Translations under genes and position numbers: made by a program
The notes under the pieces: generated by a model
Seen by the model: the letters and a program-made list of their open reading frames with translations, nothing else
Databases searched by the model: none
What the model was told of the DNA's origin: nothing
Shown here: in pieces, positions 1-27,548 of the stretch
Layout of the letters: each line of letters opens with the position of its first letter
How positions within the stretch are numbered: the stretch's first letter is position 1
DNA from: Nocardiopsis sp. N85
Lineage (GTDB): Bacteria; Actinomycetota; Actinomycetes; Streptosporangiales; Streptosporangiaceae
NCBI RefSeq assembly: GCF_028882275.1
Contig: NZ_JARBUT010000016.1
Location: forward strand, 1 to 64,000
Direction of reading: 5' to 3'
DNA: 64,000 nt

Positions 1-69
1 CCGGGTCTTGCGCCGCGTCGCCAGCGGGCGCGGCGGAGTGGCGGGAATGCCGAGATCGACGGTGGTCAT
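1..69 (-). CDS. ispG: 4-hydroxy-3-methylbut-2-enyl diphosphate synthase (IspG/GcpE), N-terminal fragment
   Basis: Only the first 23 codons are inside the window. The reverse strand reads [20 protein letters not shown] before the edge, which resembles the N-terminus of actinobacterial IspG (a short leader with a LGIP/LGMP element, then an RRKxR stretch). IspG is the penultimate MEP-pathway enzyme, a [4Fe-4S] reductive dehydratase making HMBPP. Its ATG overlaps the dxs stop as ATGA (66-69), so it is the last visible cistron of the ispH-GGPPS-dxs-ispG operon. The short fragment limits certainty, but the operon context is strong support. Confidence 0.75.
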
Positions 70-1925
70 ACCTTCCCCTCGGTGTCGGAACGAACGGTGG
101 AGGCCGATGCGCCGCCGGTGAGGCCGCGCAGACCGGCCGCGAACTCCGGGTCCCTTTCGCGGCCGTCCAGCACGGCCATGTCCTCGGCCGCCGCCATCGA
201 GATGTCCTCGATGGTCAGCCCGCACAGGGAGAGCACGTCGGCGCGGCCTCCGTGGTCCAGGAAGCGGCGGGGGATGCCGAACTCGCGCAGCGGTGTGGTG
301 ACATCGGCGTCGCGCAGCGCCTGGGCGATGGTGGAACCCACCCCGCCCACCCGGCTGTTGTCCTCCACAGTGACCACCAGGCGGTGACGGCGGGCCATGT
401 CGCACAGACCGGGGGCGACCGGCGAGACCCAGCGCGGGTCCACGACCGTCACGCCGTGGCCCAGGTCGGTGAGGCGGTCGGCGACGCCCAGGGCCACGCG
501 CGCCAGCGCGCCGATCGACACCACCAGGACGTCCAGGGCGCCCTGGCGGTAGAGGACGTCCATCCCGGCGAACACGGTCTCGGTGGGGATGTCGGGTCCG
601 GTGGCCCCCTTGGGGAAGCGCACCAGGGTGGGCCCCTCCTCCCAGGAGACGGCCTCGTCCAGGAGTTCGGCCAGCCTGGCCCCGTCGCGGGGGGCGCAGA
701 TGCGCAGGCCCGGCACCACCTGGAGGACGGACATGTCCCACATGCCGTTGTGGCTGGGCCCGTCGTCACCGGTGACCCCCGACCTGTCCAGGACGAAGGT
801 GACGGCCCGACGGTGCAGGGCCACGTCCATGAGGAGCTGGTCCAGGGCGCGGTTGACGAAGGTGGAGTAGATGGCCACCACCGGGTGGACGCCGCCCATG
901 GACAGCCCGGCCGCCATCGTCACCGCGTGCTGTTCCGCTATGCCGACGTCGATGACGCGTTCGGGGAAGCGCTCGCGCAACGGCAGCAGGCCGGTGGGCT
1001 CGGTCATCGCCGCGGTGACGGCCACCACGTCGGGGCGCTCGGCGGCGATACGGGTGACGCACTCGCCGAACACCGCGCTGAAGGAGGGGCCGGAGGACGT
1101 GGACAGGGCTCGTCCGGTCCGACGGTCCATGGGGCGGATGGCGTGCCCCCGGTCCAGGTCGTTCTCCTCCGTGGGGGCGAACCCCCGCCCCTTCTCGGTG
1201 ACGGCGTGCACGATCACCGGACCGGTCGTCCGCCTGGCGCGGGTGAGCGCCTCCCGCAGGGCGGGAATGTCATGGCCGTCCACCGGCCCCAGGTAGGTCA
1301 GCCCCAGCTGCTCGAACACGCTGAGGTCGGCGTCGCCGCCGCGCAGGCGCGCGCAATGGTCGGCGAAGCCGCCGAGGGTGGGGTCGTAGGAGCGCTCGTT
1401 GTCGTTGAGCACGATGACCAGGGGGCGGTCGGGGCCGCCACCGATGTTGTTGAGCGCCTCCCAGGCCATCCCGCCGGTCATGGCCCCGTCGCCGATGACG
1501 GCGACCACCGCCCGGTCCGTGGTCCCGGTGAGGGCGTCGGCGCGGGCCAGACCGTCGGCGTAGGACAGCGCGGTCGAGGCGTGGGAGTTCTCCACCAGGT
1601 CGTGCTCGGACTCGGCACGGGAGGGGTAGCCGGACAGGCCGCCCGCCTTGCGGAGCCGGTCGAACCCGGCCCGGCGCCCCGTGATCAGCTTGTGGACGTA
1701 GGACTGGTGCCCGGTGTCCCAGAGCAGCCGGTCCTTCGGGGAGTCGAAGACCGTGTGCAGGGCGATGGTCAGTTCCACCACCCCCAGGTTGGGGCCCAGG
1801 TGACCACCGGAGGCGGTGACCCGGTCGATGAGGAATTCGCGGATCTCCCCGGCGAGTTCCCGGAGCCGTTCGTCGGAGAGCCCGCGCAACGACGCGGGTC
1901 CTTCGATCGTGTCCAACAGGGCCAT
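66..1925 (-). CDS. dxs: 1-deoxy-D-xylulose-5-phosphate synthase (DXS)
   Basis: DXS condenses pyruvate and glyceraldehyde-3-phosphate to DXP, the entry step of the MEP isoprenoid pathway. The protein is 619 aa, normal for the family. It has the conserved GGHLG near residue 40 and a thiamine-diphosphate motif starting with GDG at 145-147 and running to the NN at 159-160. The central pyrimidine-binding domain and C-terminal transketolase domain follow. A GAGGAG ribosome binding site lies just upstream of the ATG. It is the third gene of a tight MEP operon and its stop overlaps the ispG start. Being clustered with a GGPP synthase and biosynthetic genes, it is probably a pathway-dedicated copy that raises isoprenoid supply rather than the only housekeeping gene; that is inference. 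Confidence 0.95.
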
Positions 1926-1939
1926 GTGATCACTCCTCG

Positions 1940-1959
1940 GGACCGCCTCGGGGCGGTCC
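1940..1959 (-). other. hairpin between GGPP synthase and dxs
   Basis: An 8-bp perfect stem (GGACCGCC/GGCGGTCC) with a 4-nt loop lies in the 60-bp gap between the two cistrons, just upstream of the dxs Shine-Dalgarno. There is no T-tract, so it may tune mRNA stability or partial termination rather than end the transcript. Confidence 0.3.
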
Positions 1960-1985
1960 GGGTTACGGCGGTGGGCGGCACCCGT

Positions 1986-3029
1986 TCAGCGGTTGCGGTA
2001 GGCGACCTCGTGCGCCATGGCGGCGAGTTCGTCACGCCACCCGGAGTCCAGGGACGGGTGGCGCAGCGCGTTGACGGCGTCGGCGACCAGTTCGCCGATG
2101 CGCTCCTCGATGACGTCGCCGATGCCCAGGGCGTCGAGCCGGTCGCGCAGTCGGGGCACGTCCCATTCGGGCTGCTCCACCAGCGCGCGCACCTCGGCGT
2201 CGCGCCGCACGGCCAAGGCCAGGAGCAGGGTCATCTTGTGGGTCTCCAGGTCGAGGCCGACCGGTTTCCCGGTGTGGTCGCTGTCCCCGAACAGGTCGAT
2301 GAGGTCGTCCCGGAGCTGGAACGCCTCGCCCAGGGACTCCCCGTACCTCTCGAAGACCGGTGCCAGGTCGGAGCGCCCGGCCAGGGCGGCGCCCAGCAGC
2401 AGGGGGCGGTGGATGCTGTACCGGCCCGACTTGCAGACGGCGATCCACCGGGACAGCTCGGGATCGACGACCGAGCGGGCCGCCACGGCGACGTCCAATT
2501 GCTGGCCGATGACGATCTCGGTGAGGAAGGCGTTCCAGATCGTGCGCACGTCGGGCGGCAGCTCGGTGGTGAGCCGGTCGGCCAGGATGTCGGCGAAGTC
2601 CCCGGAGAGCACGGCCACCCCCTCGCCGTAGCGGCGGGCCTCGCCCCTCCACTGGTGGTGGAGGTGGTCGCGCAGGTGGCGCACGTGGGCGGTGGAACGC
2701 CCCCGACGCAGGTCGGAGTCGTCCAGGACGTCGTCGTGCAGGAGCGCACCGACGTGGACGAGTTCGACGGCGGCGGCGCAGTCGACGGCCCGCCGGTCGT
2801 CGGGGTCCCCGCCCGCGGCCAGGTGGCCGCTGAGCAGGAAGGCGGGGCGCAGGCGCTTGCCGCCCGCGGCGACCAGGGCGGCCACGTCGTCCACCGGCAC
2901 ACAGGCGCGGGGGTCGACCCTCGCCCACCGTTCGCGTTCGGTGCGCAGCAGGGTGTCGAGCCGGTCCTCGACCCGGTCCAGCAGTCGGGCGCGCAGGTCC
3001 CGGACGTCATCGACGGTGGGTGTCGTCAT
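1986..3029 (-). CDS. polyprenyl diphosphate synthase, probably geranylgeranyl diphosphate synthase
   Basis: An all-alpha trans-prenyltransferase of 347 aa that elongates IPP and allylic diphosphates. It shows GGKRLRP at 56-62, the first aspartate-rich motif DDVLD at 99-103 followed by DLRRGRST, and the second motif DDLID at 241-245. The residues four and five before the first motif are small (Ala, Gly), so the product pocket is not blocked as in FPP synthases. The WRG...RYG...AVLSGD pattern matches actinobacterial GGPP synthases from diterpenoid clusters. C20 is the likely product, though a longer chain is possible. The ATG at 3029 overlaps the ispH stop as ATGA; a longer upstream start would lie inside ispH and is unlikely. 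The gene supplies the terpenoid arm of the cluster. Confidence 0.88.
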   Translation of the reverse strand: MTTPTVDDVRDLRARLLDRVEDRLDTLLRTERERWARVDPRACVPVDDVAALVAAGGKRLRPAFLLSGHLAAGGDPDDRRAVDCAAAVELVHVGALLHDDVLDDSDLRRGRSTAHVRHLRDHLHHQWRGEARRYGEGVAVLSGDFADILADRLTTELPPDVRTIWNAFLTEIVIGQQLDVAVAARSVVDPELSRWIAVCKSGRYSIHRPLLLGAALAGRSDLAPVFERYGESLGEAFQLRDDLIDLFGDSDHTGKPVGLDLETHKMTLLLALAVRRDAEVRALVEQPEWDVPRLRDRLDALGIGDVIEERIGELVADAVNALRHPSLDSGWRDELAAMAHEVAYRNR

Positions 3030-4003
3030 GGGGTCCCCTTCGCGGATGCGGGCCGGTCGTCGCCGGGCCCGGTGCGGGCGAGTCTCGTCGGCGGGGAGAA
3101 GACGATGTCCTCCCGGGCGACGCTCTCCAGCTCGGTGTCGCGGAAGCCGTGGTCGGCGAGGAGGTCGAGCAGTTCCTCGACCAGCACATCGGGGGCGCTG
3201 GCCCCGGCGCTGACCCCCACCGTCGAGACCCCGGTGAGCCACTCCGCGGAGAATTCGCCCACGTCGGGTACCAGGTGGGAGGCGGTTCCGGAACGCCTGG
3301 CCACCTCGACCATGCGCACGGAGTTGCTGGAGTTGCGCGAGCCCACCACCAGGACGAGATCGCTGCGGGGGGCGATGGCCTTGATCGCGTCCTGGCGGTT
3401 CTGGCTGGCGTAGCAGATGTCATCGGTGCCCGGCCCGGTGAGGTCGTGGAACCGATCGCGGAGCACCTCGACGATCTCTCGGGTCTCGTCGACCGACAGG
3501 GTGGTCTGGGTGAGATAGGCCAGCGGGGCGTCGGCCGGCAGGTCCAGGGCCCGGGCGTCCTCCACCGTCTCCACGATCACGGTCCGGTCGGGGGCGTGCC
3601 CGTGGGTGCCCTCGACCTCCTCGTGCCCGGAGTGTCCGATGAGCAGGATCGTCCGGTCCGCCTTGGCGACGCGCAGGGCCTGCTGGTGGACCTTGGACAC
3701 CAGGGGGCAGGTGGCGTCGATGACGTCCAGCCGTCGCCTCCCGGCGTTGCGGCGCACCTCGGGCGAGACGCCGTGCGCGGAGAAGACGCAGACCTCTCCC
3801 TCGGGGATCTCGTCCTCCGAATCCACGAAGATCGCGCCGCGCTCGCGCAGCACGCGCACCACGTAGTGGTTGTGGACGATCTCCTTGCGCACGTAGACCG
3901 GTGGGCCGTACCGCTCCAAGGCGATCTCGATGATGGATATCGCTCGCCGGACACCTGCGCAAAAACCTCGCGGCTCGGCAAGGATCACTTTCTTTCGCTG
4001 CAC
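3026..4003 (-). CDS. ispH: 4-hydroxy-3-methylbut-2-enyl diphosphate reductase (IspH)
   Basis: The last MEP enzyme, reducing HMBPP to IPP and DMAPP. The protein is 325 aa. The three cysteines that ligate the [4Fe-4S] cluster are present at C15 (PRGFCAGV), C99 (DATCP) and C197 (DICYAS), matching the spacing of E. coli IspH. Conserved His residues lie in VHNHY and GHSGHEE. The start is GTG at 4003 with a good GGAGGTGG Shine-Dalgarno. It is the first gene of the leftward isoprenoid operon and is divergent from the rightward IS701-like/DAHP synthase genes, so its promoter lies in the 4004-4316 gap. Confidence 0.95.
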   Translation of the reverse strand: MQRKKVILAEPRGFCAGVRRAISIIEIALERYGPPVYVRKEIVHNHYVVRVLRERGAIFVDSEDEIPEGEVCVFSAHGVSPEVRRNAGRRRLDVIDATCPLVSKVHQQALRVAKADRTILLIGHSGHEEVEGTHGHAPDRTVIVETVEDARALDLPADAPLAYLTQTTLSVDETREIVEVLRDRFHDLTGPGTDDICYASQNRQDAIKAIAPRSDLVLVVGSRNSSNSVRMVEVARRSGTASHLVPDVGEFSAEWLTGVSTVGVSAGASAPDVLVEELLDLLADHGFRDTELESVAREDIVFSPPTRLARTGPGDDRPASAKGTP

Positions 4004-4316
4004 CTCAACGCCACCTCCAGTGACCCGGCTCCGGCGTTTCCGGACACCGGGAGGGTCGCCCTCCGGTGTTATCCATGACTTCGTTCGCGCTCCCCCGACT
4101 CTGCAACCGGAGCCGGCGCCGGGTCAACACGGGAGCAGGAGAAATAGCAGGAATCAGCTACATGTGACCAGAACCTGCTGGACAGGCCATTGTCAGTCGC
4201 TTGTCATTCACAAAACGACGAATCCGTTCTTAGTGTGAGAGCCACCTCAGAAAGAAATCGGAAAACACATTAGCCCCGTGTGGGCCGAGCGAAGTGCACC
4301 GGAGCGGAGAATCCGC
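4004..4316. promoter_or_regulatory. divergent intergenic region with heptamer direct repeat
   Basis: This 313-bp gap separates the leftward MEP operon from the rightward genes and is less GC-rich than its neighbours. At 4190-4207 are two direct heptamers, TTGTCAG and TTGTCAT, with starts 11 bp apart. One helical turn is the usual spacing of SARP/AfsR-type binding repeats. No convincing -10 element could be assigned. No gene is seen in it. Confidence 0.45.
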
Positions 4317-5546
4317 GTGAATACCGTGATCAAACCCGTGGAGAACGAGATCCCGTCACCGTCCGCCGCCCCGCCGCCCGCAGTGGCGGACGACGACCCG
4401 TTGCTGAACGACCTGGTCGACGAGTTGTTCTTTTCCCTGACCCGCAGCGACCAACGCCGTAAAGGGATGGACTACCTGCGCGGACTGTTGAGCACCCCCG
4501 GCCGCAAGTCGGTCCGGAACATGGCGGCCGCCCTCGGCGGCGCCGGGACGGGGCAGAGCCTGCACCACTTCGTGTGCAGTTCCACCTGGGAGTGGTCGCC
4601 GGTGCGCCGGGCCCTGGCCCGGTACACGATGCGCGAGTCGCCGCCGCAGGCGTGGGTGGTACGCCCCCTGGTCATCCCGAAGGTCGGGCGGCACTCGGTG
4701 GGCGTGAGCCGGTACTTCTCCGCGGACCTGGGACAGGTCGTGAACGCCCAGCGCGCCGTGGGGGTGTGGCTGGCCTCCGATCACCTGAGCGTGCCGGTGG
4801 AGTGGCGGCTGCACCTTCCCGGCCGGTGGCGGGGCGCGCTGGACTGCGGCGCCCCCACTCCGGCGATGGCCCAGTCGGAGACCCTGGTGGGGTGCGCCGC
4901 CGAGGCGAGCCTCGCCATGATCGAGAGCTGGGGGCTGCCCCCTCGCCCGGTGATCCTGGACCTGGACGACACCGACCCGTTGCCCGCGTTCCGTCGCCTG
5001 TACGCGGCCGGGCTGCGCCCGGCGGCGCGGATCCGACCGGAGCTGCCGCTGCGGGTGACCGACCCCGCCCTCATCGGCCACCGGGGGCGGACACTGCCCG
5101 CCGAGCTGGTGATGCGGGCCGGCCAGGAGATGCGCCGACCGGTACCGGACCCCTCGGACCCCGCCCGGCGGGCCCGACTGGTCGCGGCGGTGCGGGTGAC
5201 CCGCCCCTCGGCCGCGCCGTCGGCGCCCGGGGCCGCTCCCGAGGAGGAGTTGTTGCTGGTCGGGATCGGCCGGGGCGGACGCCCCTGGCCCCAGGAACTG
5301 TGGCTGGTCCGGCCACCGGAGTCCCACGCGGGCCCCGCCGCCCTGTGGGCGAGCCGGCTGGTGGACCGGGTCGAGCGGTCCTTCGCGCGGTTCGGCGACC
5401 CGGTGGGCATGCGCGACTACGCGGGCCGGTCGTTCAACGGGTGGCACCGCCACATCACACTCGCCTCGGTCGCGCACACCTTCCGCGCCCTGTCGCCGGT
5501 CGCGGAGGCGCGGGCACGGCCCACGACCGTCCCCGCCGCGACATGA
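4317..5546 (+). CDS. IS701-family transposase-like protein, catalytically degenerate
   Basis: A 409-aa protein whose body follows the IS701 DDE transposase fold: the PKxGxHSVGVxRxY block (121-133), the PVEWRLHLPGRW block (160-171), and the C-terminal GRSFNGWHRHITL block (370-382). Catalytic positions are altered. The first Asp, normally in a VVDDTGFPK context, is Arg116 (VVRPLVIPK). The Glu normally before the GRS block is Ala369. An Asp at 215 matches the second acidic position. No terminal inverted repeats or target duplication were seen, and the gene has the cluster's own composition. The GTG at 4317 has GGAGCGGAGA six bases upstream; a farther GTG at 4278 lacks one. It looks like a domesticated DNA-binding protein, perhaps a regulator of the cluster; that role is inference. 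Confidence 0.75.
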   Translation: MNTVIKPVENEIPSPSAAPPPAVADDDPLLNDLVDELFFSLTRSDQRRKGMDYLRGLLSTPGRKSVRNMAAALGGAGTGQSLHHFVCSSTWEWSPVRRALARYTMRESPPQAWVVRPLVIPKVGRHSVGVSRYFSADLGQVVNAQRAVGVWLASDHLSVPVEWRLHLPGRWRGALDCGAPTPAMAQSETLVGCAAEASLAMIESWGLPPRPVILDLDDTDPLPAFRRLYAAGLRPAARIRPELPLRVTDPALIGHRGRTLPAELVMRAGQEMRRPVPDPSDPARRARLVAAVRVTRPSAAPSAPGAAPEEELLLVGIGRGGRPWPQELWLVRPPESHAGPAALWASRLVDRVERSFARFGDPVGMRDYAGRSFNGWHRHITLASVAHTFRALSPVAEARARPTTVPAAT

Positions 5547-5661
5547 CGAAGTACAGCCGACTTCCCATGGCCGAGCCCGAGACCTCGGCACACTCGAACG
5601 GTCCGCGGTACGCGAGCGACCCTCTCGTGCCGCACCGACGCACCCGGATCATGGAGCAGCC

Positions 5662-6831
5662 GTGAAGACCGAGTCGCCCGACCTGCGCCGACGAACCGCG
5701 CTCCAGCAGCCCGACTGGGGCGACGACCCCCGGTTGCCCGAGGTCCGCGAACGGCTCCGGGCCCGGCCCGGACTGGTGCGGATCGAGGACGTGGACCGGT
5801 TGAGCGGCCTGCTGGCGCGGGTCGCGTCGGGCGAGGCCCGTGTGGTCACCGCCGGCGACTGCGCCGAGGACCCGGAGCGGTGCGGGCCCGAGGCGGTCGG
5901 CGCGCAGGAGTTCCTGGTGGGCGCCCTGGCCGAGGTGCTGGAGGCGACGACGGGTCGGCCGGTGGTGCGGGTGGGCCGGATCGGCGGACAGTTCGCCAAA
6001 CCGCGCTCGCGGCCCACCGAGATCGTCGAGGGGCGCGAACTGCCGGTGTACCGGGGCCATCTGGTCAACGCCCCGGAACCGACCCCGACCGGGCGCGCGC
6101 ACGACCCCGAGCGTCTGTTGGCGTGCCACGACGCGGCGCGCACCGTGCTGGAGCACCTGGGCCGGCGGTCCGGTCCCACCGGCCCGGCCCGGACGCCGTC
6201 GCTGTGGACGGCGCACGAGGCCCTGGTGCTCGACTACGAGGTCCCCGCGCTGCGCCGCACCCCGGACGGGCGCACCCTGCTGACCTCCACGCACTGGCCG
6301 TGGGTGGGAGACCGCACCCGCCACCCCGAGGGGGCGCACATCGCCCTGTTGTCCGGTGTCGCCAACCCGGTGGCCTGCAAGGTCGGCCCCTCGGCGACCG
6401 TCGAGGAGTTGCTGGAGGTGTGCGACCGGCTGGACCCCGAGCGGCGGCCGGGGCGGCTCACCCTCATCTCCCGCCAGGGGGTGGGCGGAACGGAGGCGCT
6501 GCGCCGCCTGGTCGCGGCCGTGCGCGCCGCGGGCCACCCGGCGATCTGGATGAGCGACCCGATGCACGGCAACACCGTCAGAACGCCCTCGGGTCTGAAG
6601 ACCCGCTACGTGTCGGCGATCGTCCGGGAGGTGCGGGAGTTCCAGGCGGCGGTGCGCGCGGCCGGCGGCATCGCCGGGGGCCTGCACCTGGAGGCCACCC
6701 ACGAGCCGGTCACCGAGTGCGTGTCCGACGCCTCCCGGGTCGACCGGGTGGCCGACCGGTACACCAGCCTGTGCGATCCCCGGCTCAACCCGGCCCAGGC
6801 GGTCGCGGTGGCGTCGGCGTGGACCGCGTGA
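5662..6831 (+). CDS. class II 3-deoxy-D-arabino-heptulosonate-7-phosphate (DAHP) synthase, PhzC-like
   Basis: Condenses phosphoenolpyruvate and erythrose-4-phosphate, the first shikimate step. The 389-aa protein has the metal-binding Cys of the AGDCAE motif at residue 67, GRIGGQFAKPRS near 113-124, DPMHGNT, and a C-terminal HLEATHEPVTEC segment like secondary-metabolism PhzC enzymes. At about 390 aa it is shorter than the regulated primary enzyme of actinomycetes (about 450 aa), as usual for cluster-borne copies that escape feedback control. GTG start with GGAG upstream. It opens the four-gene operon that ends in the ADIC synthase, so it likely boosts chorismate supply for 3-hydroxyanthranilate. 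Confidence 0.92.
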   Translation: MKTESPDLRRRTALQQPDWGDDPRLPEVRERLRARPGLVRIEDVDRLSGLLARVASGEARVVTAGDCAEDPERCGPEAVGAQEFLVGALAEVLEATTGRPVVRVGRIGGQFAKPRSRPTEIVEGRELPVYRGHLVNAPEPTPTGRAHDPERLLACHDAARTVLEHLGRRSGPTGPARTPSLWTAHEALVLDYEVPALRRTPDGRTLLTSTHWPWVGDRTRHPEGAHIALLSGVANPVACKVGPSATVEELLEVCDRLDPERRPGRLTLISRQGVGGTEALRRLVAAVRAAGHPAIWMSDPMHGNTVRTPSGLKTRYVSAIVREVREFQAAVRAAGGIAGGLHLEATHEPVTECVSDASRVDRVADRYTSLCDPRLNPAQAVAVASAWTA

Positions 6832-6860
6832 GGACCCCCATGGAACGAGAGGAGTCCGCG

Positions 6861-7631: not shown

Positions 7632-7682
7632 ACCCGCCCGCACCGGGGACCGCACCGGACGACCAGCAGGAGGAGGACGACC

Positions 7683-10252: not shown

Positions 10253-10279
10253 GGCCCACCGGGGCCGCCGCGGCCGTCC

Positions 10280-19821: not shown

Positions 19822-19835
19822 CGGAGGCCTGACGC

Positions 19836-21185
19836 ATGCCGGAGCACACGAGGATCGCCGTTATCGGCGGAGGAATGGCGGGATGCGCCGCCGCCAGGGA
19901 ACTGACCGCGGCGGGGAAGGAGGTCGTGCTCTTCGAGTCGGCCGACGGCCTGGGAGGGCGGGCCCGCTCCTGGCGTCGGCCGGAGATCGAGCCCGAGGTC
20001 GGGATCAACCTGATGTGCGCCAGCATGTACTCGACCATGTGGGGGATGATCCGCGAGTACGGCCTGGAGGGGGAACTGGAGAAGATCTCCAGCAACCTGC
20101 TGGTCTCCGACGGCGGCGTCGTGGCCCCGCTGCCCTCCGACTCCATTCCGGCGCTCCTGCGCTACCGGCACGTGCGGCTGCGCGACCGGCTGGCGTTCCT
20201 GTACTCCTCGATGCGGGAGATGCTGGTGAACGGGCGCACGGGCCGGATCGACCTGTTCGACCCCGAGCGTCTGGCCGACTTCGACGACGGCACCACGGCC
20301 ACGGAGTACGGCCGGAGCCTGATGTCGCACCGGGGCTTCGACTACATGCTGCGATCGCAGATCGAGGGGTTCTGGAACTTCGACTGCGACGGGATCTCCG
20401 TCTCGCACGCCCGGGCGATGCTCGCGACGATGGGCGGGGCCGAGTTCTTCGTGTTCCGGGAGGGCATGCAGGTCCTGGCCGAGCGCAACGCCGCGGACGC
20501 CCGGGTGCTGCTGCGCCATGAGGTGTCGGAGGTGCGTCTGGAGCACGGCCGGGTGGTCGTCTCCTCCCAGGGGGAGGGGGGAGAGGCCGGCGGGGAGTTC
20601 GACGCCGTGGTGGTGGCGGTGCCCGCGCCGATCGCGGCCAAGGTCATCGCGTCGCTGCCCCGCGAGGCGGTGGGCGACCGGATGCGCGACTACCTGGAGG
20701 GCCAGGAGTACGAGCCGGCGCTGTCGATGTCCTACCTGGTGGACGCGGACGCCCTGCCGCCGGAGACGCACATCATGGCCGGCGGCGCGCAGGACCCGCC
20801 GATCCGGAACATGATCACCTACCCGCGCCGGGTGCGCGGCGCCGACGGCACCGTCCGCGACCGGCTGCTGGTGTTCGCCTACCCGGGACGGGCCGTCACC
20901 CGTCGTCTCCTGGGGCGCGGCCCCGAGGAGCAGTACGCCACCGTCACCCCGCTGCTGAGCAGGCTGTGGCCGGACTTCCCCCGCGACCCCGAACCCTTCC
21001 AGGTGGCCGAGCGGCCCTACGGGTTCCCCATCCCCTCGCCGGGCCGCTACCGGGCCTCGGTGGCCGCCACCCGGGGCCAACGGCCGCCCGTGGTGTTCGC
21101 GGGCGACCACTTCAGCTCCCCCACCACCGAGGCCGCGATGCGCTCGGGCATCCGGGCCGCCCGCAGCATCCTGGGCGCCTCGTAG
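19836..21185 (+). CDS. FAD-dependent amine-oxidase-like oxidoreductase
   Basis: A 449-aa flavoprotein with the dinucleotide-binding GGGMAG at residues 11-16, a VVLFESADGLGGRARS segment, and a C-terminal FAGDHFSSPTTEAAMRSG FAD-binding motif. These place it with flavin-containing amine oxidases, protoporphyrinogen oxidases and phytoene-desaturase-like enzymes. The substrate cannot be told from sequence. In this cluster it may desaturate or oxidise the terpenoid or the aminophenol ring, or an aminosugar. A heme-pathway HemG is encoded separately at 48758-50215, so this is not the housekeeping porphyrinogen oxidase. GGAGG upstream of ATG 19836. Confidence 0.8.
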   Translation: MPEHTRIAVIGGGMAGCAAARELTAAGKEVVLFESADGLGGRARSWRRPEIEPEVGINLMCASMYSTMWGMIREYGLEGELEKISSNLLVSDGGVVAPLPSDSIPALLRYRHVRLRDRLAFLYSSMREMLVNGRTGRIDLFDPERLADFDDGTTATEYGRSLMSHRGFDYMLRSQIEGFWNFDCDGISVSHARAMLATMGGAEFFVFREGMQVLAERNAADARVLLRHEVSEVRLEHGRVVVSSQGEGGEAGGEFDAVVVAVPAPIAAKVIASLPREAVGDRMRDYLEGQEYEPALSMSYLVDADALPPETHIMAGGAQDPPIRNMITYPRRVRGADGTVRDRLLVFAYPGRAVTRRLLGRGPEEQYATVTPLLSRLWPDFPRDPEPFQVAERPYGFPIPSPGRYRASVAATRGQRPPVVFAGDHFSSPTTEAAMRSGIRAARSILGAS

Positions 21186-21297: not shown

Positions 21298-22236
21298 TCA
21301 GGCGTACCACATGTCGTGCAGGGAGTCGCTGACCGGGACCACGGGACGCCAGCCCAGCAGGCGTTCGGCGGCCGCGATGTCGGCGAGCATCCAGCCACCG
21401 CCCATCCCCGCGACGGGTTCGAGCACCTCTTGCACCCGGTCCGGGGCGACACCGGACGCCCGGCGCAACCAGGCGACCATCTCCCCGATGCCCACCGCCC
21501 GGCCGCCGCCGACGTTGAGGATCCGCCCCGAAACACCGGGCCGGTCTCCGGCGAGCACCACGGCGCGGGCCACATCGCGCACGTCGACGAAGTCGCGGCG
21601 GTCCCCCGTCACCCGCAGGGAGACCCGTTCTCCCGCGACGGCCCGTCGGAACCGCTCCAGGAGGACGCCGGGGAAGGACGCCGGGGAGGGGTGCGGCCCG
21701 CAGACGTTGGCCACGCGCAGCACCACGGCGTCGACGCGTCCCTCCCGGGCGGCTCGGACGACCGTGTCCGACCCCGCGCGCTTGGTGCGGGCGTAGGCGT
21801 TGGCCGGGCGGGGCGGGGTGTCCTCGTGCACGGCCGTCCCGTCGGGGACCGGACCGTACTCGTGGAGGGTGCCCAGGTGCACCAGCCGGGGCGGGCGCTC
21901 CACGGCCTCGACGGCATCGACCAGGGTGGCGACCGCCCCGACGTTGCCCTTCTCCAGCTCGCTCTCGGGCCGGTGCCAGCCGTCGCGGGAGTTGGCGGCG
22001 TCGGTGGCGTTGACCACCACCCGGGCATCGTGCGCCTCCAGCAGCCGCGCCACCTCCTCCGGGCCGGCCTCGGCCAGGTCGAGGCGGTGGAAGGGGTGCC
22101 CTCCGAGGTGCGGGGCCGGCTCCCGTGCCACCGCCACGGCCGGGCGGCCGGTGCGGGCGTGGGCGGCCAGTACGTGACGGCCGATCCACCCGGTGGCGCC
22201 GAGCACCACCACCGTCCCGGTCCCCTCCCCGGTCAT
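21298..22236 (-). CDS. NDP-hexose 4-ketoreductase (NAD-dependent epimerase/dehydratase family)
   Basis: An extended SDR of 312 aa with the LGATGWIG Rossmann motif near residues 12-19, a LGTLHEYGP segment with the catalytic Thr, and YARTK as YxxxK. It belongs with EvaE/TylD/EryBIV-type reductases that set the C4 hydroxyl in the last step of a TDP-deoxysugar. It is the terminal gene of the leftward operon and its ATG overlaps the epimerase stop as ATGA (22233-22236). The C4 stereochemistry, which would separate rhodosamine-like from megosamine-like products, cannot be read from sequence here. Confidence 0.82.
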   Translation of the reverse strand: MTGEGTGTVVVLGATGWIGRHVLAAHARTGRPAVAVAREPAPHLGGHPFHRLDLAEAGPEEVARLLEAHDARVVVNATDAANSRDGWHRPESELEKGNVGAVATLVDAVEAVERPPRLVHLGTLHEYGPVPDGTAVHEDTPPRPANAYARTKRAGSDTVVRAAREGRVDAVVLRVANVCGPHPSPASFPGVLLERFRRAVAGERVSLRVTGDRRDFVDVRDVARAVVLAGDRPGVSGRILNVGGGRAVGIGEMVAWLRRASGVAPDRVQEVLEPVAGMGGGWMLADIAAAERLLGWRPVVPVSDSLHDMWYA

Positions 22237-22856
22237 ACCGGCGTCCCCTGCCGCCACAACGCCTCCTCCAGCTCGACACAGGTGCGGTGGTCCGGTAGCC
22301 CGCCCTCCTCCATGACCTGCGCGAGGCCGGGGGCGGCCCGGTCCCGTTCGGACAGGATCGGGGTCACGTCCTCGGGCAGGGGCAGCCCCAGGTCCGGGTC
22401 CAGCGGGTGCAGGGCCCGCTCGTTGCGGGGGTCGTACTCCACCGACAGGGAGTAGGTGACGATGGTGTCGTCCTCCAGCGAGACGAACAGGTGGCCGACC
22501 CCCACGGGCAGGTAGAGCGCCACCGGGGCCGTCGGCTCCAGCACGACGCTCTCGTGCCGGCGGAAGGTGGGCGAGCCGACGCGCAGGTCGACGGCGATGT
22601 CCAGCGCCCGACCGCGCGGGCAGTGCACGTACTTGGCCATCCCGGGCGGGGCCTGGGTGTAGTGCACGCCCCGCACGACGCCCCGGCGGGAGACGCTGTA
22701 ACTGGTCTGCACCACGGGGAAGAGCCCGTGGCCCGAGACACGGCGCAGCTCCGCGCCTTGGAGGGGTGTGGCGAACAGGCCGCGTTCGTCGTCGAAGACC
22801 TCGTAGGGCAGCAGGTAGGCCCCCTCGATGCCGAGGGGGCGGGCCCGGAGGGTCAC
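22233..22856 (-). CDS. dTDP-4-keto-6-deoxyhexose 3,5-epimerase (EvaD/RmlC-like)
   Basis: A cupin-fold sugar epimerase of 207 aa with the RGVHYTQAPPGMAKYV active-site block containing the catalytic His and the DIAVDLRVGSPTF motif. For a substrate already deoxygenated at C2 and aminated at C3, the expected activity is C5 epimerisation, converting the D to the L series. GTG at 22856 overlaps the methyltransferase stop as GTGA. The presence of this enzyme is the main reason to predict an L-configured aminosugar. Confidence 0.87.
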   Translation of the reverse strand: MTLRARPLGIEGAYLLPYEVFDDERGLFATPLQGAELRRVSGHGLFPVVQTSYSVSRRGVVRGVHYTQAPPGMAKYVHCPRGRALDIAVDLRVGSPTFRRHESVVLEPTAPVALYLPVGVGHLFVSLEDDTIVTYSLSVEYDPRNERALHPLDPDLGLPLPEDVTPILSERDRAAPGLAQVMEEGGLPDHRTCVELEEALWRQGTPV

Positions 22857-23596
22857 GCCGGGCCTCCCGCCACACCGACGAACAGGCCGGGGCCGGGGCC
22901 GGGGATGTACTCCACCGAGCATCCGGCGGCGGCGAACGCCTTCTCGTAGACCTCGCGCCGGTGGACGGCCAGCACGTGCACGTCGATGAAGTGCTCGACG
23001 CCCTCCTCAGGGGAGGCGACGGTGTAGTGCACGTCCATGTGGTGGGCGCCGTCCCGGTACAGGCTGTGGGACACGCGCGCGATGGTGCGGCCCTCGACGG
23101 TGACGAGCGCGCTGGACACGTGGCGTTCGGTGGCCCTCTCGGGGAAGTACCAGGGTTCCAGCACGATCACGCCGCCGGGCTCCGTGTGGGCGGCGAGGCG
23201 GGCCAGGGTCGCCTCGACCTCGGCCGCCTCGGACAGGTGGGCGATGGAGCTGAACATGCAGATGACCGCGTCGAAGCGGCGGCCCAGGTCGAAGGAGCGC
23301 ATGTCGCCCTGGTGGACGGGCGTGCCGGGCAGGTTGGCGGCGGCGAGTCGCACCATGTCCTCGGCCAGGTCCACTCCCTCGACCCGCTCGAAGGATCCGG
23401 AGAGGTGGCCCAGGTGGGTGCCGGGACCGCAGGCGACGTCCAGCAGGGAGGAGGCGTCCGGCCGACGCTCGCGCACCAGGGCCGTGATCTGGGCCGCCTC
23501 GGCCTCGTAGTCCTTGCCCCGGCCTCGGTAGACGGCCTCGTAGATCTCGGCGCGACGGTAGATCGCGGTGAGGCGGTCCTCATGGGTCTCGGTCAT
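22853..23596 (-). CDS. TDP-aminosugar N-methyltransferase (DesVI/TylM1-like)
   Basis: A class I SAM-dependent methyltransferase of 247 aa. The YEAVYRGRGKDYEAEA N-terminal stretch and the LLDVACGPGTHLGHL SAM-binding loop (about 51-65) are hallmarks of the TylM1/DesVI/RdmD group. These N,N-dimethylate the 3-amino group of TDP-aminosugars. AAGGAG ribosome binding site just upstream. It sits between the 3-aminotransferase and the epimerase, in pathway order. Di- rather than mono-methylation follows from family behaviour and is not proven. Confidence 0.9.
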   Translation of the reverse strand: MTETHEDRLTAIYRRAEIYEAVYRGRGKDYEAEAAQITALVRERRPDASSLLDVACGPGTHLGHLSGSFERVEGVDLAEDMVRLAAANLPGTPVHQGDMRSFDLGRRFDAVICMFSSIAHLSEAAEVEATLARLAAHTEPGGVIVLEPWYFPERATERHVSSALVTVEGRTIARVSHSLYRDGAHHMDVHYTVASPEEGVEHFIDVHVLAVHRREVYEKAFAAAGCSVEYIPGPGPGLFVGVAGGPA

Positions 23597-23604
23597 TGTT
23601 CTCC

Positions 23605-24726
23605 TTAGAGTTCGTCCAGGACCTTGCGCAGCACGGTGATGACCCGCTCCTGGTGCTCCCGGGGCAGGTGGGGGTACATGGGCAGGGAGAAGATCTCCCC
23701 CGCGAGGGCCTCGGTCACCGGCAACGACCCTCGCTCGATCCCCAGGTGGGCGAAGCCGGACATGGTGTGGACCGGCCAGGGGTAGCTGATGTTGAGGTGG
23801 ATGTCGTGTTCCCGCAGGCGCTCGATGATCGTGTCGCGCTCGGGGTGACGGACCACGTAGACGTAATGGACGTGCTCGTTGCCCTCGGTGGTGACGGGCA
23901 GCCGCAGGCCGTCGGGGGAGACGAGGTCGCCCAGGCCCTCGACGTAGCGGCGGGCCACGTCGCGGCGGCCCTCGACGTAGGCGTCCAGGCGGGTCAGCTT
24001 GCGCCGCAGGATCTCGGCCTGGACCTCGTCCAGACGGCTGTTGTGCCCGGGTGTGCGAACGACGTAGTAGACCTCCTCCATGCCGTAGTAGCGCAGGCGG
24101 CGCAGCGCCCGTTCGACCTCGGGGTCGTCGGTCACCACGGCCCCCGCGTCCCCGTAGGCCCCGAGCACCTTGGTGGGGTAGAAGGAGAACGCGGCGGCGT
24201 CGCCCATGGTCCCGGCCGGTCGGCCGTGGTGACGGGCCCCGTGCGCCTGTGCGCAGTCCTCCAGGACCACCAGGCCGTGGCGGTCGGCGACGGACCGGAC
24301 CGCGGCCATGTCCACGCACTGGCCGTACAGGTGGACCGGCAGCAGGGCCTTGGTGCGTTCGGTGACCGCGGCCTCCAGCAGCCCGGTGTCCATGAGGTGG
24401 TCGCTCTCGTGGACGTCCACGAACACCGGGGTCGCGCCGACGGCGTCGATGGCGATCACGGTGGGGGCGGCCGTGTTGGACACGGTGACGACCTCGTCAC
24501 CGGGACCCACGCCCAGGGCCTGGAGGCCGAGGGCGACCGCGTTGGTGCCGTTGTCGACGCCGACGCAGTGGGCGAGTCCGTGGCGGGCGGCGAACTCCCG
24601 CTCGAAGCCGAGCACGCTCTCGCCGAGGATGAGCCTTCCCGAGGCGAAGACGGTGCGCACCGCGTCCAGGACGTCGTCGCGCTCCTTCTCGTACTCGGGC
24701 AGGTAGTCCCATACGCGGATGGTCAT
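23605..24726 (-). CDS. DegT/DnrJ/EryC1-family NDP-hexose 3-aminotransferase
   Basis: A PLP-dependent sugar aminotransferase of 373 aa. The PLP Lys is K186 in [15 protein letters not shown]; the cofactor Asp is in [11 protein letters not shown] (D157). It transfers an amino group, usually from glutamate, to the 3-keto sugar formed after 2,3-dehydration, as EvaB/DesV/TylB do. No separate 3-ketoreductase was found, which agrees with direct amination at C3. ATG at 24726 with AGGAG upstream; an in-frame start 12 codons earlier is less likely. Confidence 0.9.
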
Positions 24727-24768
24727 GTCGTCCTCACTCCTGTTTCCTCCTTCGCCGGGCACGGTGGC

Positions 24769-24802: not shown

Positions 24803-24807
24803 CGAGG

Positions 24808-25914
24808 TCACCGGGCGAGTTTCTCCAGCAGGCCGACGACCTCCGCCGGCGAGGGCAGCGCGGCCATCTGCTCCGACAGCGCACGGGCACGGTCGCCGTA
24901 GGCGGGGTCGGCGAGGATCCGGCCGCAGGCCGCGGCGATGTCCTCGGTCCGCTGTGCGCCCGGTTCGAGCAGCAGCCCCGCCCCGTAGTCGGCCAGGCGG
25001 CGCATGGCGTCGGCCGAGACGTCCTGCTCGACGATGAGCTGGGGGACCCCGGCGCGCAGGGAGGCCATGTCGGTCACGCCACCGCCGTGGTGCAGGATCA
25101 CGTCGCAGGTGGGGGCGACCACGTCGAGGGGGGCCCAGCCCACGTGGGCTTCGGGCAGGTCGCCGCGCACCTCGGCGGCGACGTGCTCGGCGACCCCGAT
25201 CACCACCTCGACGCCGAGGTCGGCGACGCCGCGGGCCATGTGGACCAGGGCCCGGGGGTCGGGCACCCGCGCCCCCGCGGTGATGTAGACGCGGGGGCGG
25301 TCGCCCTTGGTGTACATCCACGGTTCCAGGGGGCGCTGGGGGTTCACCGGGAGCCAGCGCATCGGCTGCCGCCCGGCCTCCTGGCCGGGGGTGCGCAGGT
25401 CCGGCGGGCAGATGTCGATCCACAGGTCGGGGTCGGGGACGGCGTCCAGGCCGCGCCGTTCCAGTTCGGGGGCGAGGACGTCCCGGGCGCCGGGGGCGTA
25501 GATGGCGGAGTCCGTGCGGTCCCACTCCAGCCGCACGGACGGCACGCCCAGCGTGTGGGCCAGCAGCGGGGCGGAGTAGAACATGGAGCCGCCGACCACC
25601 AGGTCGGGCCGCCACTGCGCGGCCAGGTCGAGCAGGGCCGGCTGGCTCCGCAGGGCGATGTCGGCGTAGATGCGGCCGACGGCCACGGCCTGTTCGGCCG
25701 GGTCGGCGGGCGCGTTGCCCATGAACTCGGCGACGTCGGCCCCGGTGACGGGGGCGATCGTGAGGGGGGTCAGGCCGATGGCGGCGATGTCGGGGACGAC
25801 CCATTCGATGCCGCCGACCACGACCTCGTGCCCGGCGCCGCGCGCGGCGTAGGCGAGGGCCGCGTGCGAGAAGATCGGCGAGGGACTGTTCCCGGGAATG
25901 AAGAGAATGCGCAT
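24808..25914 (-). CDS. GT1-family glycosyltransferase
   Basis: A GT-B fold enzyme of 368 aa related to EryCIII/DesVII and other macrolide and aromatic glycosyltransferases. N-terminal MRILFIPGNSPSPIFSH acceptor-domain start and the C-terminal DVILHHGGGVTDMASLRAG donor-binding motif. It should attach the TDP-aminosugar to the aglycone in the cytoplasm. DesVII-like transferases often need a DesVIII-type partner, but none is seen in the window. First gene of the leftward operon, divergent from the PhyH gene, with the 25999-26037 inverted repeat in its promoter region. Confidence 0.9.
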   Translation of the reverse strand: MRILFIPGNSPSPIFSHAALAYAARGAGHEVVVGGIEWVVPDIAAIGLTPLTIAPVTGADVAEFMGNAPADPAEQAVAVGRIYADIALRSQPALLDLAAQWRPDLVVGGSMFYSAPLLAHTLGVPSVRLEWDRTDSAIYAPGARDVLAPELERRGLDAVPDPDLWIDICPPDLRTPGQEAGRQPMRWLPVNPQRPLEPWMYTKGDRPRVYITAGARVPDPRALVHMARGVADLGVEVVIGVAEHVAAEVRGDLPEAHVGWAPLDVVAPTCDVILHHGGGVTDMASLRAGVPQLIVEQDVSADAMRRLADYGAGLLLEPGAQRTEDIAAACGRILADPAYGDRARALSEQMAALPSPAEVVGLLEKLAR

Positions 25915-25998
25915 GGGAATTCACTTTTCTGCGGCAGATGAGAACGCAGCCAAGGGTGGCCCCGGCCGAAGGGGCCGACAAGGGGCCCGAATCCGGTT

Positions 25999-26037
25999 TG
26001 TCATGTCGTCCCGTCCCCCGGAAATCACGACATGACA
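25999..26037. promoter_or_regulatory. perfect 11-bp inverted repeat TGTCATGTCGT, candidate operator
   Basis: TGTCATGTCGT (25999-26009) and its exact inverse ACGACATGACA (26027-26037) are separated by 17 nt in the 198-bp divergent gap between the glycosyltransferase and PhyH genes. Near-identical half-sites occur at 13771-13792. It probably binds a dimeric regulator that acts on both directions. Confidence 0.55.
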
Positions 26038-26112
26038 TAGTGATCGCCGCGTTTCCGTGGCCGCGGGCACCGGGCGTTAGAACGGGGTTGACGCCTGGAA
26101 GGGAGAACGGCC

Positions 26113-26910
26113 GTGATCGACGACACGGAACTGACGACTCCGGAGAACCTGCCGGAGGAGGCGATCCGCAAGTACCAGGAAGAGGGGTACCTCCACATTC
26201 CCCGGGTCCTGACGGACGAGGAGGTCGCCGAGTGCTACGCGGACGCGAAGAAGCTCATCGAGGAGGAGAAGGGGGGTGTGTGGGACGACTCGGTGGACGA
26301 GATGGTCAAGGACAAGGGCGCGACCGTCATGCAGTGGCTGGAGGAGGCCGAGACCCGCAGTGAGGCCCTGCGCCGCCTGGCCCTGCACCCCCGGGTCACC
26401 ACCATCGCCGAGATGATCACCGGCCGACCGTTGCGGATGTTCCGCTCCGAGATCCTGCGCAAGCCCAGCGACAACTCGGCGGCCACCCCGCCGCACATCG
26501 ACGAGCCCTACTGGCCGTGGCAGGGCGGGGTCACGATGACCGCGTGGGTGGCCCTGGTGGACGTGCCCGTGGAGCGGGGGTGCATGTCGTTCGTCCCCGG
26601 TTCGAACAAGATCCCGCCGCCCGGACCCGGTGACTGGGACATCTTCTCCAAGTACCCGGAGCTGACGTGGCGGCCCCGGGTGACGGTGCCGCTGCGGGCC
26701 GGCGGTTGCACCTTCCACAACGAGCGGGTCGTGCACATGGCCGGGGCCAACCTGAGCGGCTCCGACCGGTTGTCGCTGGGCACGGTGTACATCGACGCCG
26801 AGACCCGGTTCGACCCCGACGCGGGCTTCTCCGAGGAGGACCTGGGGTTCGGCCCCGGCGACCTCATCGTCGGGGACAAGTACCCGCTCGTGGGCACGTT
26901 CTCCGGCTGA
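26113..26910 (+). CDS. phytanoyl-CoA dioxygenase (PhyH)-family Fe(II)/2-oxoglutarate oxygenase
   Basis: A 265-aa non-heme iron oxygenase. The iron triad is visible as H128-x-D130 in PPHIDEPYWP and H208 in ERVVHMAGA. Arg219 in SDRLSLG is placed to bind 2-oxoglutarate. Such enzymes hydroxylate unactivated carbons in many terpenoid and antibiotic pathways; the substrate here is unknown, but the terpenoid part or the aglycone is likely. GTG start with AAGGGAGAA upstream. Followed after six bases by idi, so probably co-transcribed. Confidence 0.87.
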   Translation: MIDDTELTTPENLPEEAIRKYQEEGYLHIPRVLTDEEVAECYADAKKLIEEEKGGVWDDSVDEMVKDKGATVMQWLEEAETRSEALRRLALHPRVTTIAEMITGRPLRMFRSEILRKPSDNSAATPPHIDEPYWPWQGGVTMTAWVALVDVPVERGCMSFVPGSNKIPPPGPGDWDIFSKYPELTWRPRVTVPLRAGGCTFHNERVVHMAGANLSGSDRLSLGTVYIDAETRFDPDAGFSEEDLGFGPGDLIVGDKYPLVGTFSG

Positions 26911-26916
26911 GCGGCC

Positions 26917-27489
26917 GTGTCCCAGAGCGCCGGGCGGGAGACCCGGCAGTCCACGGTCCTGGTCGAACTGGTCGATGGCGGCGGGGCGACGATCGGCACA
27001 CGGGAGAAACTCGCGGCGCACCGGCCGCCGGGCGAACCGCACCGGGCGTTCTCGGTGTTCCTGTTCTCCTCTGACGGACGGATGCTGTTGCAGCGCCGCG
27101 CCGAGGGCAAGTACCACTCCCCCGGCGTGTGGTCGAACACCTGTTGCGGCCACCCCCTGCCGGAGGAGCCGCCGTTCCTGGCGGCGACCCGGCGCACCGT
27201 CGAGGAGCTGGGGGTCGCGCCCTGGTCGCTGCGGCCGGCGGGCACCGTCCGCTACGACCTGGAGGACCCGCGCTCGGGGCTGGTGGAACGGGAGTTCAAC
27301 CACCTGTTCGTGGGCCGGGTCGCCGACACCCCTCGGCCCGACCCCGAGGAGGTCGCCGAGACGACCCTGGTGACCCCCGACGGGTTGCGCGGGCTCCAGA
27401 AGGAGACGGAGTTCTCCGTGTGGTTCGAGACGGTCCTGAACGCCGCCTCGCCGGAGATACGGAGACTGGTGCCCGAACACCTTTGGTGA
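26917..27489 (+). CDS. idi: isopentenyl-diphosphate delta-isomerase, type I
   Basis: A Nudix-fold metalloenzyme of 190 aa interconverting IPP and DMAPP. SNTCCGHP contains the catalytic Cys77, and VEREFNH has the acidic residues (E124/E126) matching the E. coli catalytic Glu. The GREKLAAH-type leader and LLQRRAEGKYHSPGVW are typical. It balances the DMAPP/IPP ratio for the GGPP synthase, linking the right end of the cluster to the MEP operon at its left end. Start GTG at 26917, six bases after the PhyH stop. Confidence 0.94.
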   Translation: MSQSAGRETRQSTVLVELVDGGGATIGTREKLAAHRPPGEPHRAFSVFLFSSDGRMLLQRRAEGKYHSPGVWSNTCCGHPLPEEPPFLAATRRTVEELGVAPWSLRPAGTVRYDLEDPRSGLVEREFNHLFVGRVADTPRPDPEEVAETTLVTPDGLRGLQKETEFSVWFETVLNAASPEIRRLVPEHLW

Positions 27490-27508
27490 GGGCACCGTCC
27501 ATCGGACC

Positions 27509-27548
27509 CCGGGCCCCGTGACGTTGCGCCAAACGTCACGGGGCCCGG
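27509..27548 (+). terminator. strong hairpin terminator at the right edge of the cluster
   Basis: A perfect 17-bp stem (27509-27525 with 27532-27548) with a 6-nt loop follows idi by 20 bp, without a T-run. It marks the likely right boundary of the biosynthetic cluster. Confidence 0.7.

Follow-up and report, generated by a model that had tools for sequence, protein, structure and literature searches.

A candidate gene cluster for a prenylated, N-N-bonded and glycosylated 3-hydroxyanthranilate in Nocardiopsis sp. N85

The first 64,000 nucleotides of contig NZ_JARBUT010000016.1 of Nocardiopsis sp. N85, referred to here as the window, begin with genes for isoprenoid precursors, for 3-hydroxyanthranilate (3-HAA) and for a dimethylamino sugar. 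This raises the question of whether the genes belong to one pathway, and which product such a pathway would make. The window makes up the first 64 kb of contig C8, which is 153 kb long and belongs to a genome of 6.5 Mb and 54 contigs. An earlier note on this DNA had proposed a single cluster for a glycosylated aminobenzoate meroterpenoid, a proposal supported by the linkage of the genes and their recurrence in other genomes. The sequence is best read as a single biosynthetic cluster some 40 kb long, which would comprise positions 1-11473 of a second contig (C4), the gene ispG and window positions 1-27489. This cluster probably makes a prenylated, glycosylated 3-HAA with an N-N bond. The nitrite pathway and the diazotase-like ligase lie off the window on C4, beyond the view of the earlier note, which missed the nitrite pathway for this reason. 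Both alter what chemistry is predicted, and they ally the core of the cluster with that of penzonemycin.

Two contigs and a predicted nitrite pathway

Window position 1 is the end of the contig and lies inside ispG. The set of genes is not complete within 1-27548, and about 11.5 kb more are found on C4. The prenyltransferase and the ligase that the earlier note expected left of position 1 are present there, and they are contiguous with the other parts in Nocardiopsis sp. CC223A (genome G016) and in the genomes G021 and G208. The terpene cyclase, also expected there, was not seen among the Pfam hits of the scanned cluster proteins, with the shared unassigned genes of the relatives scanned in part. 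The genes of this side are as follows.

C4:96-1058, UbiA prenyltransferase (Pfam UbiA 66 bits, cut-off 34)
C4, between UbiA and the AMP-ligase, LuxR/ATPase regulator, FMN reductase, zinc-type quinone reductase and SRPBCC protein
C4:6517-8088, AMP-ligase (Pfam AMP-binding 2e-38)
C4:about 8088-10,088, CreE homolog (aspartate N-monooxygenase)
C4:10,085-11,473, CreD homolog (nitrosuccinate lyase)
Window 1..68, minus strand, 5' end of ispG, with the remainder absent from the assembly and a continuation on C4

The gene identities, their linkage, the UbiA motifs and the CreD and CreE active sites are read directly in these sequences. The UbiA enzyme is predicted to prenylate the ring of 3-HAA, and both of its Asp-rich motifs, located by what we take to be their definition, are kept in all ten genomes that carry the cluster. 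The last two C4 genes in this list would encode the aspartate-nitrosuccinate (ANS) pathway to nitrous acid, and nitrite production is predicted. The CreD homolog reaches 690 bits on the nitrosuccinate lyase equivalog model NF052556 (cut-off 650) and aligns with the crystallised CreD 5xny at 5e-162. Its loop SSAMPHKRNP fits the pattern SSxMPxKRNP, and Arg, Trp and His are kept at the 302-341-346-347 spacing (places 341/346/347); this loop and these residues are reported as needed in CreD (PMC13411527). The CreE homolog, the sole CreE in this genome at E<=1e-20, is 59% identical to the L-aspartate N-hydroxylase PDB 8cp2 over 589 positions. Of the 12 site residues drawn from PMC10404684, by which a CreE-type enzyme with its entry-chamber arginines was judged, 11 are kept and R597 is replaced.

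The join between the two contigs is based on ispG. The minus strand of 1-68 encodes 22 residues, and all but the first one or two equal the G016 residues entering ispG, while C4:2-52 encodes the final 17 ispG residues, 100% identical to those of G016. A PF04551 search found no ispG in the assembly, and C8:1-68 matches C23:1-68 at 99%. The cluster ispG and the other copy share 99.3% and 98.0% DNA identity in two Nocardiopsis relatives, and therefore such near-identical copies probably broke the assembly at position 1. The two dxs copies of this genome, unlike the ispG copies in relatives, are only 69-75% identical in DNA, one of them lying in the cluster and the other at C8:80.8 kb. In G016, G021 (on a 7.2-Mb contig) and the single-contig G208, ispG is followed by the UbiA gene. 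In N. endophytica and N. chromatogenes, each showing one ispG, contigs likewise stop between dxs and UbiA, consistent with the same break. The option of an unknown left flank was rejected on the ispG ends on C8 and C4 and the synteny with relatives, and the flank most likely lies on C4. The genes past C4:11,473 resemble sulfur and cofactor metabolism (by eye) and were taken as the left border.

A separate observation concerns the origin of the cluster ispG, which shares 94.8-99.3% of its DNA with the other copy in G016, G021 and G208 and about 83% in three other genomes. This suggests recent replacement or gene conversion by the housekeeping copy, an event that apparently interrupts draft assemblies here.

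Probable joint inheritance of the modules

The gene content of 1-27,489 was checked by listing of open reading frames and by Pfam and NCBIfam scans, which confirmed the modules named in the earlier note at their places: methylerythritol phosphate (MEP) genes, a geranylgeranyl diphosphate (GGPP)-type synthase, idi, the 3-HAA genes, the aminosugar genes with a glycosyltransferase, a SARP and an exporter. The isoprenoid and aromatic modules consist of the following genes.

66..1925, minus strand, second copy of dxs (1-deoxy-xylulose-5-phosphate synthase; Pfam DXP_synthase_N 7e-97)
1986..3029, minus strand, polyprenyl diphosphate synthase (Pfam polyprenyl_synt 2.5e-45)
3026..4003, minus strand, ispH (LytB; Pfam LYTB 5e-90)
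5662..6831, plus strand, class II 3-deoxy-D-arabino-heptulosonate 7-phosphate (DAHP) synthase (Pfam DAHP_synth_2 4e-114)
6870..7631 (start approximate), plus strand, 2,3-dihydro-3-hydroxyanthranilate dehydrogenase of the SDR family (TIGR04316 dhbA 324.9 bits, cut-off 300)
7683..8366, plus strand, PhzD-like isochorismatase (Pfam Isochorismatase 5e-37)
8363..10252, plus strand, PhzE-like 2-amino-2-deoxyisochorismate synthase with chorismate-binding and glutamine amidotransferase parts (Pfam Chorismate_bind 1e-39, GATase 2e-23)
26917..27489, plus strand, idi, isopentenyl-diphosphate isomerase type 1 (NF002995 185 bits, cut-off 127)

The 3-HAA set, of the calcimycin/limazepine type, is present with its PhzE-like synthase, isochorismatase and dehydrogenase of the 2,3-dihydroxybenzoate type. 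The polyprenyl synthase has the motifs DDVLD and DDLID and is 62-92% identical to its counterparts in nine other genomes (92% in G016). GGPP is a plausible product. The idi gene forms the right border, since the four tabulated genes to its right adjoin the cluster only in G016.

MEP genes, UbiA and a ligase of this kind occur together in ten genomes of five genera. These are the present genome, G016, G021, G208 (another genus of the family), N. endophytica, N. chromatogenes, Kibdelosporangium persicum, Microtetraspora sp. NBRC 13810, Streptomyces sp. LHD-70 and Streptomyces sp. B-S-A12. Partial cases outside the ten are Streptomonospora mangrovi, G363, a metagenome-assembled genome (MAG) and S. 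halstedii. A close and colinear counterpart lies on contig C37 of G016, with 79-96% protein identity for the cluster genes. All ten genomes have dxs, ispH, the polyprenyl synthase, UbiA, the ligase, the SRPBCC protein, the LuxR regulator and the 2,3-dehydratase. The quinone reductase, 4,6-dehydratase, MFS exporter and SARP are found in nine, and the aminotransferase, N-methyltransferase, epimerase, ketoreductase, glycosyltransferase and IS701-like gene in eight. Each 3-HAA gene, as well as CreD and CreE, is found in 7/10, the flavin oxidase and PhyH in 6/10 (the 40% PhyH of Microtetraspora, below the threshold, is left out), and the MPAB-like oxygenase and idi in 4/10; several of the absences fall in B-S-A12, LHD-70 and N. 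chromatogenes, draft assemblies examined in part.

The order of the genes varies between genera while their content stays largely the same, and no other evidence for a single pathway is as strong. The recurrence of much the same set in nine other genomes, in altered order, also goes beyond chance. Between the MEP, 3-HAA, nitrite, ligase and sugar modules, pairwise identities show correlations of 0.86-0.97 (10-45 pairs). With UbiA among the modules the range is 0.81-0.97, and for the oxidases against the rest it is 0.41-0.85. Such correlations are expected under joint descent and support it; host phylogeny alone would also raise them. The alternative of two unrelated abutting clusters, an isoprenoid one on the left and an aromatic-aminosugar one on the right, starts from the fact that each module occurs alone elsewhere, e.g., in ligase loci whose examined stretch has neither UbiA nor MEP genes. 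The joint recurrence of the modules in changed order across genera, with UbiA, MEP genes and ligase contiguous in six genomes (G016, G021, G208, K. persicum, Microtetraspora and LHD-70), largely refutes it and leaves it very improbable. The separation into distinct clusters that the earlier note had named as fatal to its proposal was thus not found.

Role of the ligase

The predicted chemistry depends on the AMP-ligase of C4, a member of the ANL family. Two of its top solved relatives are structures of Tri17 (9bq0/8tf7, 1.5e-22), which can convert anilines to diazo compounds (PMC11705231). In a profile search of solved structures, Tri17 comes second, behind an entry named 'FadD' and just ahead of 4-chlorobenzoate ligases, and diazotases were not set apart from CoA ligases. 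Of 394 genomes of this class, 18 contain a relative of the ligase at E<=1e-90. Genome contigs scanned for it yielded 29 named ligase loci, two of which end less than 600 bases from the ligase. The SRPBCC gene is present in 29/29 of them, the quinone reductase in 26/29, CreE in 21, CreD in 21 and both in 20. Judged from these sequences, the ligase likely uses nitrite.

Several findings weigh against this role and against the predicted product as a whole. On the diazotase model NF058622 (cut-off 975) the ligase scores only 88 bits, against 130 on a CoA-ligase model. The solved structure that matches it best bears the name of a fatty-acid-CoA ligase, and the C-terminal lysine region, which carboxylate-activating enzymes use, is kept. 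Eight ligase genomes with no local CreE at >=50% were searched whole for CreE at E<=1e-60. A CreE relative lies elsewhere in five of them: on other contigs at 64-67% in B-S-A12 and in the genome of locus L070, and with best matches of 38-47% in the other three, among which the genome of locus L090 also has fragments at 64-65% and Microtetraspora has only a 43% relative, elsewhere in its genome. The search found no CreE in the whole genomes of G208, Streptomonospora mangrovi and the Pseudonocardiaceae MAG. In the single contig of G208 the rest of the cluster is contiguous, and no creD or creE lies beside it. No terpene cyclase turned up in the Pfam scans of the cluster proteins. Such an enzyme is expected in cyclised diterpenoid clusters of the brasilicardin/terpentecin type, and the present one is not classed among them. 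Finally, the C8-C4 join comes from synteny, with no assembled sequence bridging it in this genome, and the parts are split over contigs in 4/10 genomes, this one among them.

In the case of G208, either nitrite comes from outside or the ligase is independent of nitrite. The first option was also raised for the 72 of 134 ava-like clusters that have no CreD/CreE pair (PMC10777205). The second belongs to a different reading of the whole cluster, in which the ligase would activate the carboxyl group of 3-HAA for an amide or an ester, and nitrite would be used by another enzyme or not at all. The CoA-ligase scores, the lysine region, the retention of the ligase in G208 with no detectable CreE and the position of ligases of about 50% identity beside p-aminobenzoate-synthesis-like genes (by eye) would suit such a function. 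It is nevertheless rather improbable, considering that CreE and CreD both lie near the ligase in 20/29 named loci, that the Pfam scans of the cluster genes gave no second AMP-ligase, and that Pzm18, the counterpart beside the SRPBCC protein in the penzonemycin cluster, was published as a CreM homolog at 48% identity (PMC9323291).

If the ligase diazotises its substrate, as is favored here, the next question is the fate of the nitrogen. The SRPBCC protein of the penzonemycin cluster (Pzm19) was proposed to be an oxidase in section 2.2 of PMC9323291, a section that describes no test of it. In a traceless use of nitrite, hydride replacement would follow diazotisation and remove the amino group, giving a prenylated 3-hydroxybenzoate glycoside with no N-N bond. 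The ava and cma clusters provide published cases of deamination that depends on diazotisation (avenalumic and p-coumaric acid; PMC10777205), and the hydride could come from the quinone reductase of the 26 loci and, in this genome, from the FMN reductase. However, penzonemycin, whose cluster has the same core of ligase, SRPBCC protein and quinone reductase, keeps its N-N bond (PMC9323291), and the loss of the nitrogen is considered unlikely.

More distant ligases were also observed. Those of loci L158-L163 (G296, G057, G244, G379, G133 and G233) are 48-51% identical to the diazotase-like ligase, and in L159 and L163 they lie with genes resembling a PabAB synthase and a flavin hydroxylase (by eye). 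No anchor such as creM was found in the loci of these relatives, and the group possibly acts on p-aminobenzoate derivatives. A second locus of the present genome (L155, G000:C11, 8480-16553) is perhaps devoted to another aminobenzoate meroterpenoid. Its AMP-ligase shares 38-39% identity with the diazotase-like one, its UbiA enzyme is 47% identical to that of the cluster, and a flavin amine-oxidase-like enzyme, two DegT aminotransferases and a CoA-transferase accompany them.

Known systems, accessory genes and the predicted product

Azamerone and the SF2415 napyradiomycins are meroterpenoids, so the diazo step is known to meet meroterpenoid chemistry. To our knowledge, they have a polyketide naphthoquinone core, with neither 3-HAA nor an aminosugar, and we know of neither an isoprenoid nor a sugar in cremeomycin. 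The napyradiomycin cluster contains the CreM homolog NapB4 (PMC11705231). In the cremeomycin pathway, CreE and CreD provide nitrous acid from aspartate, and CreM performs an ATP-dependent diazotisation of an amino-hydroxybenzoate into an ortho-diazoquinone (PMC11705231); the difference is that cremeomycin is built from 3-amino-4-hydroxybenzoate (3,4-AHBA; PMC11429834). In the tasikamide aha cluster, a CreM-type diazotisation of hydroxyanthranilate (Aha11) is followed by hydrazone formation (PMC11705231), but the substrate is an alkyl 5-hydroxyanthranilate with a peptide partner, and that account mentions neither isoprenoid nor aminosugar. The cluster of a membrane-bound 1,6-dihydroxyphenazine prenyltransferase (PMC4044012) joins phenazine and isoprenoid genes with a membrane-bound prenyltransferase; it leads to a phenazine, however, and the opening of the abstract mentions neither a nitrite pathway nor an aminosugar.

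The closest core is that of the penzonemycin cluster (pzm) of Streptomyces sp. SCSIO 40020, which shares the genes for 3-HAA, nitrite, ligase, SRPBCC and quinone reductase as well as an IS701-like gene. Its published list (Table 3 of PMC9323291) names a PhzE/anthranilate-type synthase, an isochorismatase, a 2,3-dihydro-2,3-dihydroxybenzoate dehydrogenase, a DAHP synthase, a 432-aa 'transposase' (pzm10), CreD, CreE, a quinone reductase, a CreM-like ligase, an SRPBCC protein and a SARP. S. halstedii L087, the nearest named relative seen, has two ligases at 70% and 66% identity, CreE at 67% and CreD at 66%. Compared by this list, pzm has none of the MEP genes, prenyl synthase, UbiA, sugar genes and glycosyltransferase, all of which are in the present cluster. 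It has an acetolactate synthase and an N-acetyltransferase instead, and no acetolactate-synthase-derived partner was found here. Filing the locus as a penzonemycin cluster was rejected for its isoprenoid and sugar genes and this missing partner. No high-identity match to a characterised cluster was met in the sequences and open-licence literature searched. Among the open-licence literature matches listed, no published cluster joins nitrite, 3-HAA, UbiA and an aminosugar, although this argues only weakly that none exists. As far as these searches reach, the cluster is uncharacterised, and the penzonemycin core together with an isoprenoid and an aminosugar pathway is a new combination.

The remaining genes of the window belong to the sugar, tailoring, regulation and export.

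4278..5546, plus strand, IS701-transposase-derived gene (NF033540 259 bits, cut-off 150)
10280..11605, minus strand, NDP-hexose 2,3-dehydratase (Pfam Hexose_dehydrat 1e-143)
11652..12605, minus strand, dTDP-glucose 4,6-dehydratase (Pfam GDP_Man_Dehyd / Epimerase)
12602..13594 (start maybe farther upstream), minus strand, glucose-1-phosphate thymidylyltransferase (TIGR01208 338 bits, cut-off 320)
13931..14809, plus strand, MPAB/Lcp-type (trans-anethole-oxygenase-like) oxygenase (Pfam MPAB_Lcp_cat 5e-19; PDB 8s1j trans-anethole oxygenase 1e-6)
14794..18024, minus strand, SARP-type regulator with ATPase/TPR domains (Pfam BTAD 2e-39, Trans_reg_C)
18166..19737, plus strand, MFS exporter (Pfam MFS_1 2e-45)
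19836..21185, plus strand, flavin amine-oxidase/desaturase-like oxidoreductase (Pfam Amino_oxidase 3e-36)
21298..22236, minus strand, NDP-hexose 4-ketoreductase (Pfam Epimerase; role from context)
22233..22856, minus strand, dTDP-sugar 3,5- or 5-epimerase (Pfam dTDP_sugar_isom 2e-46)
22853..23596, minus strand, TDP-3-amino-sugar N,N-dimethyltransferase (PDB 3bxo 4e-75; 3pfg 3e-73)
23605..24726, minus strand, DegT-type NDP-hexose aminotransferase, putatively acting at position 3 (Pfam DegT 9e-107)
24808..25914, minus strand, EryCIII-type glycosyltransferase (Pfam EryCIII-like_C 1e-24)
26113..26910, plus strand, PhyH-type 2-oxoglutarate/Fe dioxygenase (Pfam PhyH 1e-33)

The gene set for a TDP-3-dimethylamino-2,3,6-trideoxyhexose is complete from the thymidylyltransferase through the glycosyltransferase. 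The aminotransferase matches solved sugar aminotransferases (PDB 7b0d 3e-92, 2oga 2e-89 and 3frk QdtB 4e-79), and the N,N-dimethyltransferase matches solved enzymes for TDP-3-aminosugars. Together with the 2,3-dehydratase, these matches predict a 3-dimethylamino-2,3,6-trideoxyhexose, in which the position of the amino group and the stereochemistry are presumptive. Six relatives add one gene, which in the one scanned (G021) is a sugar-type C-methyltransferase (Methyltransf_13/14); none was seen in the stretches of this genome or G016, and the congeners in those relatives probably carry a branched sugar. The count of two or three oxygenases in the earlier note agrees with the three redox enzymes found, of the MPAB/Lcp, flavin and PhyH types, and the flavin enzyme resembles solved amine oxidases at its N-terminus only. 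G021 also has an alpha-L-fucosidase-like glycosidase (L034, 6057-7457; Pfam). Homologs of it occur in the stretches of Microtetraspora, N. chromatogenes and N. endophytica, and none was seen in the cluster stretches of this genome. The glycosidase may act outside the cell to unmask a product that is inactive in its glycosylated form.

The IS701-like gene has a transposase as its best NCBIfam model. Of the 7 inverted-repeat pairs in 3900-6000, not one flanks it, and no Asp stands at the first catalytic position, placed by what we assume to be the canonical IS701 motif, in the 12 aligned sequences (R, Q or H in all 12). A class-wide search gave 30 loci including this one, with Asp at that position in 3 and another residue in 27; four of the loci, this one included, adjoin a DAHP synthase, and five are near a SARP-like gene. 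A random insertion was rejected, the gene being kept with the cluster across genera with no bracketing inverted repeats. From its sequence, the protein is probably inactive as a transposase. It resembles a former transposase that biosynthetic clusters have put to new use, perhaps in regulation.

The order of the steps, the ring position, the final N-N group, the sugar stereochemistry and the structure as a whole are what we infer from these genes. A C15-C20 diphosphate would come from the extra MEP genes together with idi and the polyprenyl synthase, and the DAHP synthase, PhzE-like synthase, isochorismatase and dehydrogenase would form 3-HAA, whose ring the UbiA enzyme would prenylate. The CreE and CreD homologs would convert aspartate to nitrous acid, with which the CreM/Tri17-type ligase and ATP would diazotise the amino group; an ortho-diazoquinone can gain stability from the ortho hydroxyl. 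Processing of the diazo intermediate would fall to the SRPBCC protein and the quinone reductase, the flavin, PhyH and MPAB-type oxygenases would trim the product, and the dTDP-3-dimethylamino-2,3,6-trideoxyhexose would be attached before export. More specifically, and only tentatively, the product may belong to a family of diazo or hydrazone meroterpenoid aminoglycosides, in which nitrite acts on the prenylated 3-HAA, the ortho-diazoquinone is held or converted by the SRPBCC protein and quinone reductase, possibly with ring closure onto the prenyl chain, and the dimethylamino sugar is added last.

Fewer than 30 diazo natural products were counted in 2026, and 20 of 469 predicted diazo clusters were linked to products (PMC13061610). 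In the present cluster, predicted diazo chemistry is joined to isoprenoid and aminosugar pathways, and the fact that several genera conserve it suggests that the product is worth keeping. Candidate strains for isolation are Nocardiopsis sp. CC223A, N. chromatogenes, N. endophytica, Kibdelosporangium persicum and Microtetraspora sp. NBRC 13810. No tested role was seen for the two accessory proteins of the ligase, SRPBCC and quinone reductase cassette, and G208, with its ligase kept and CreE undetected, is a natural test case. If the proposed family is real, it would be a class of natural products for which no described member was found.

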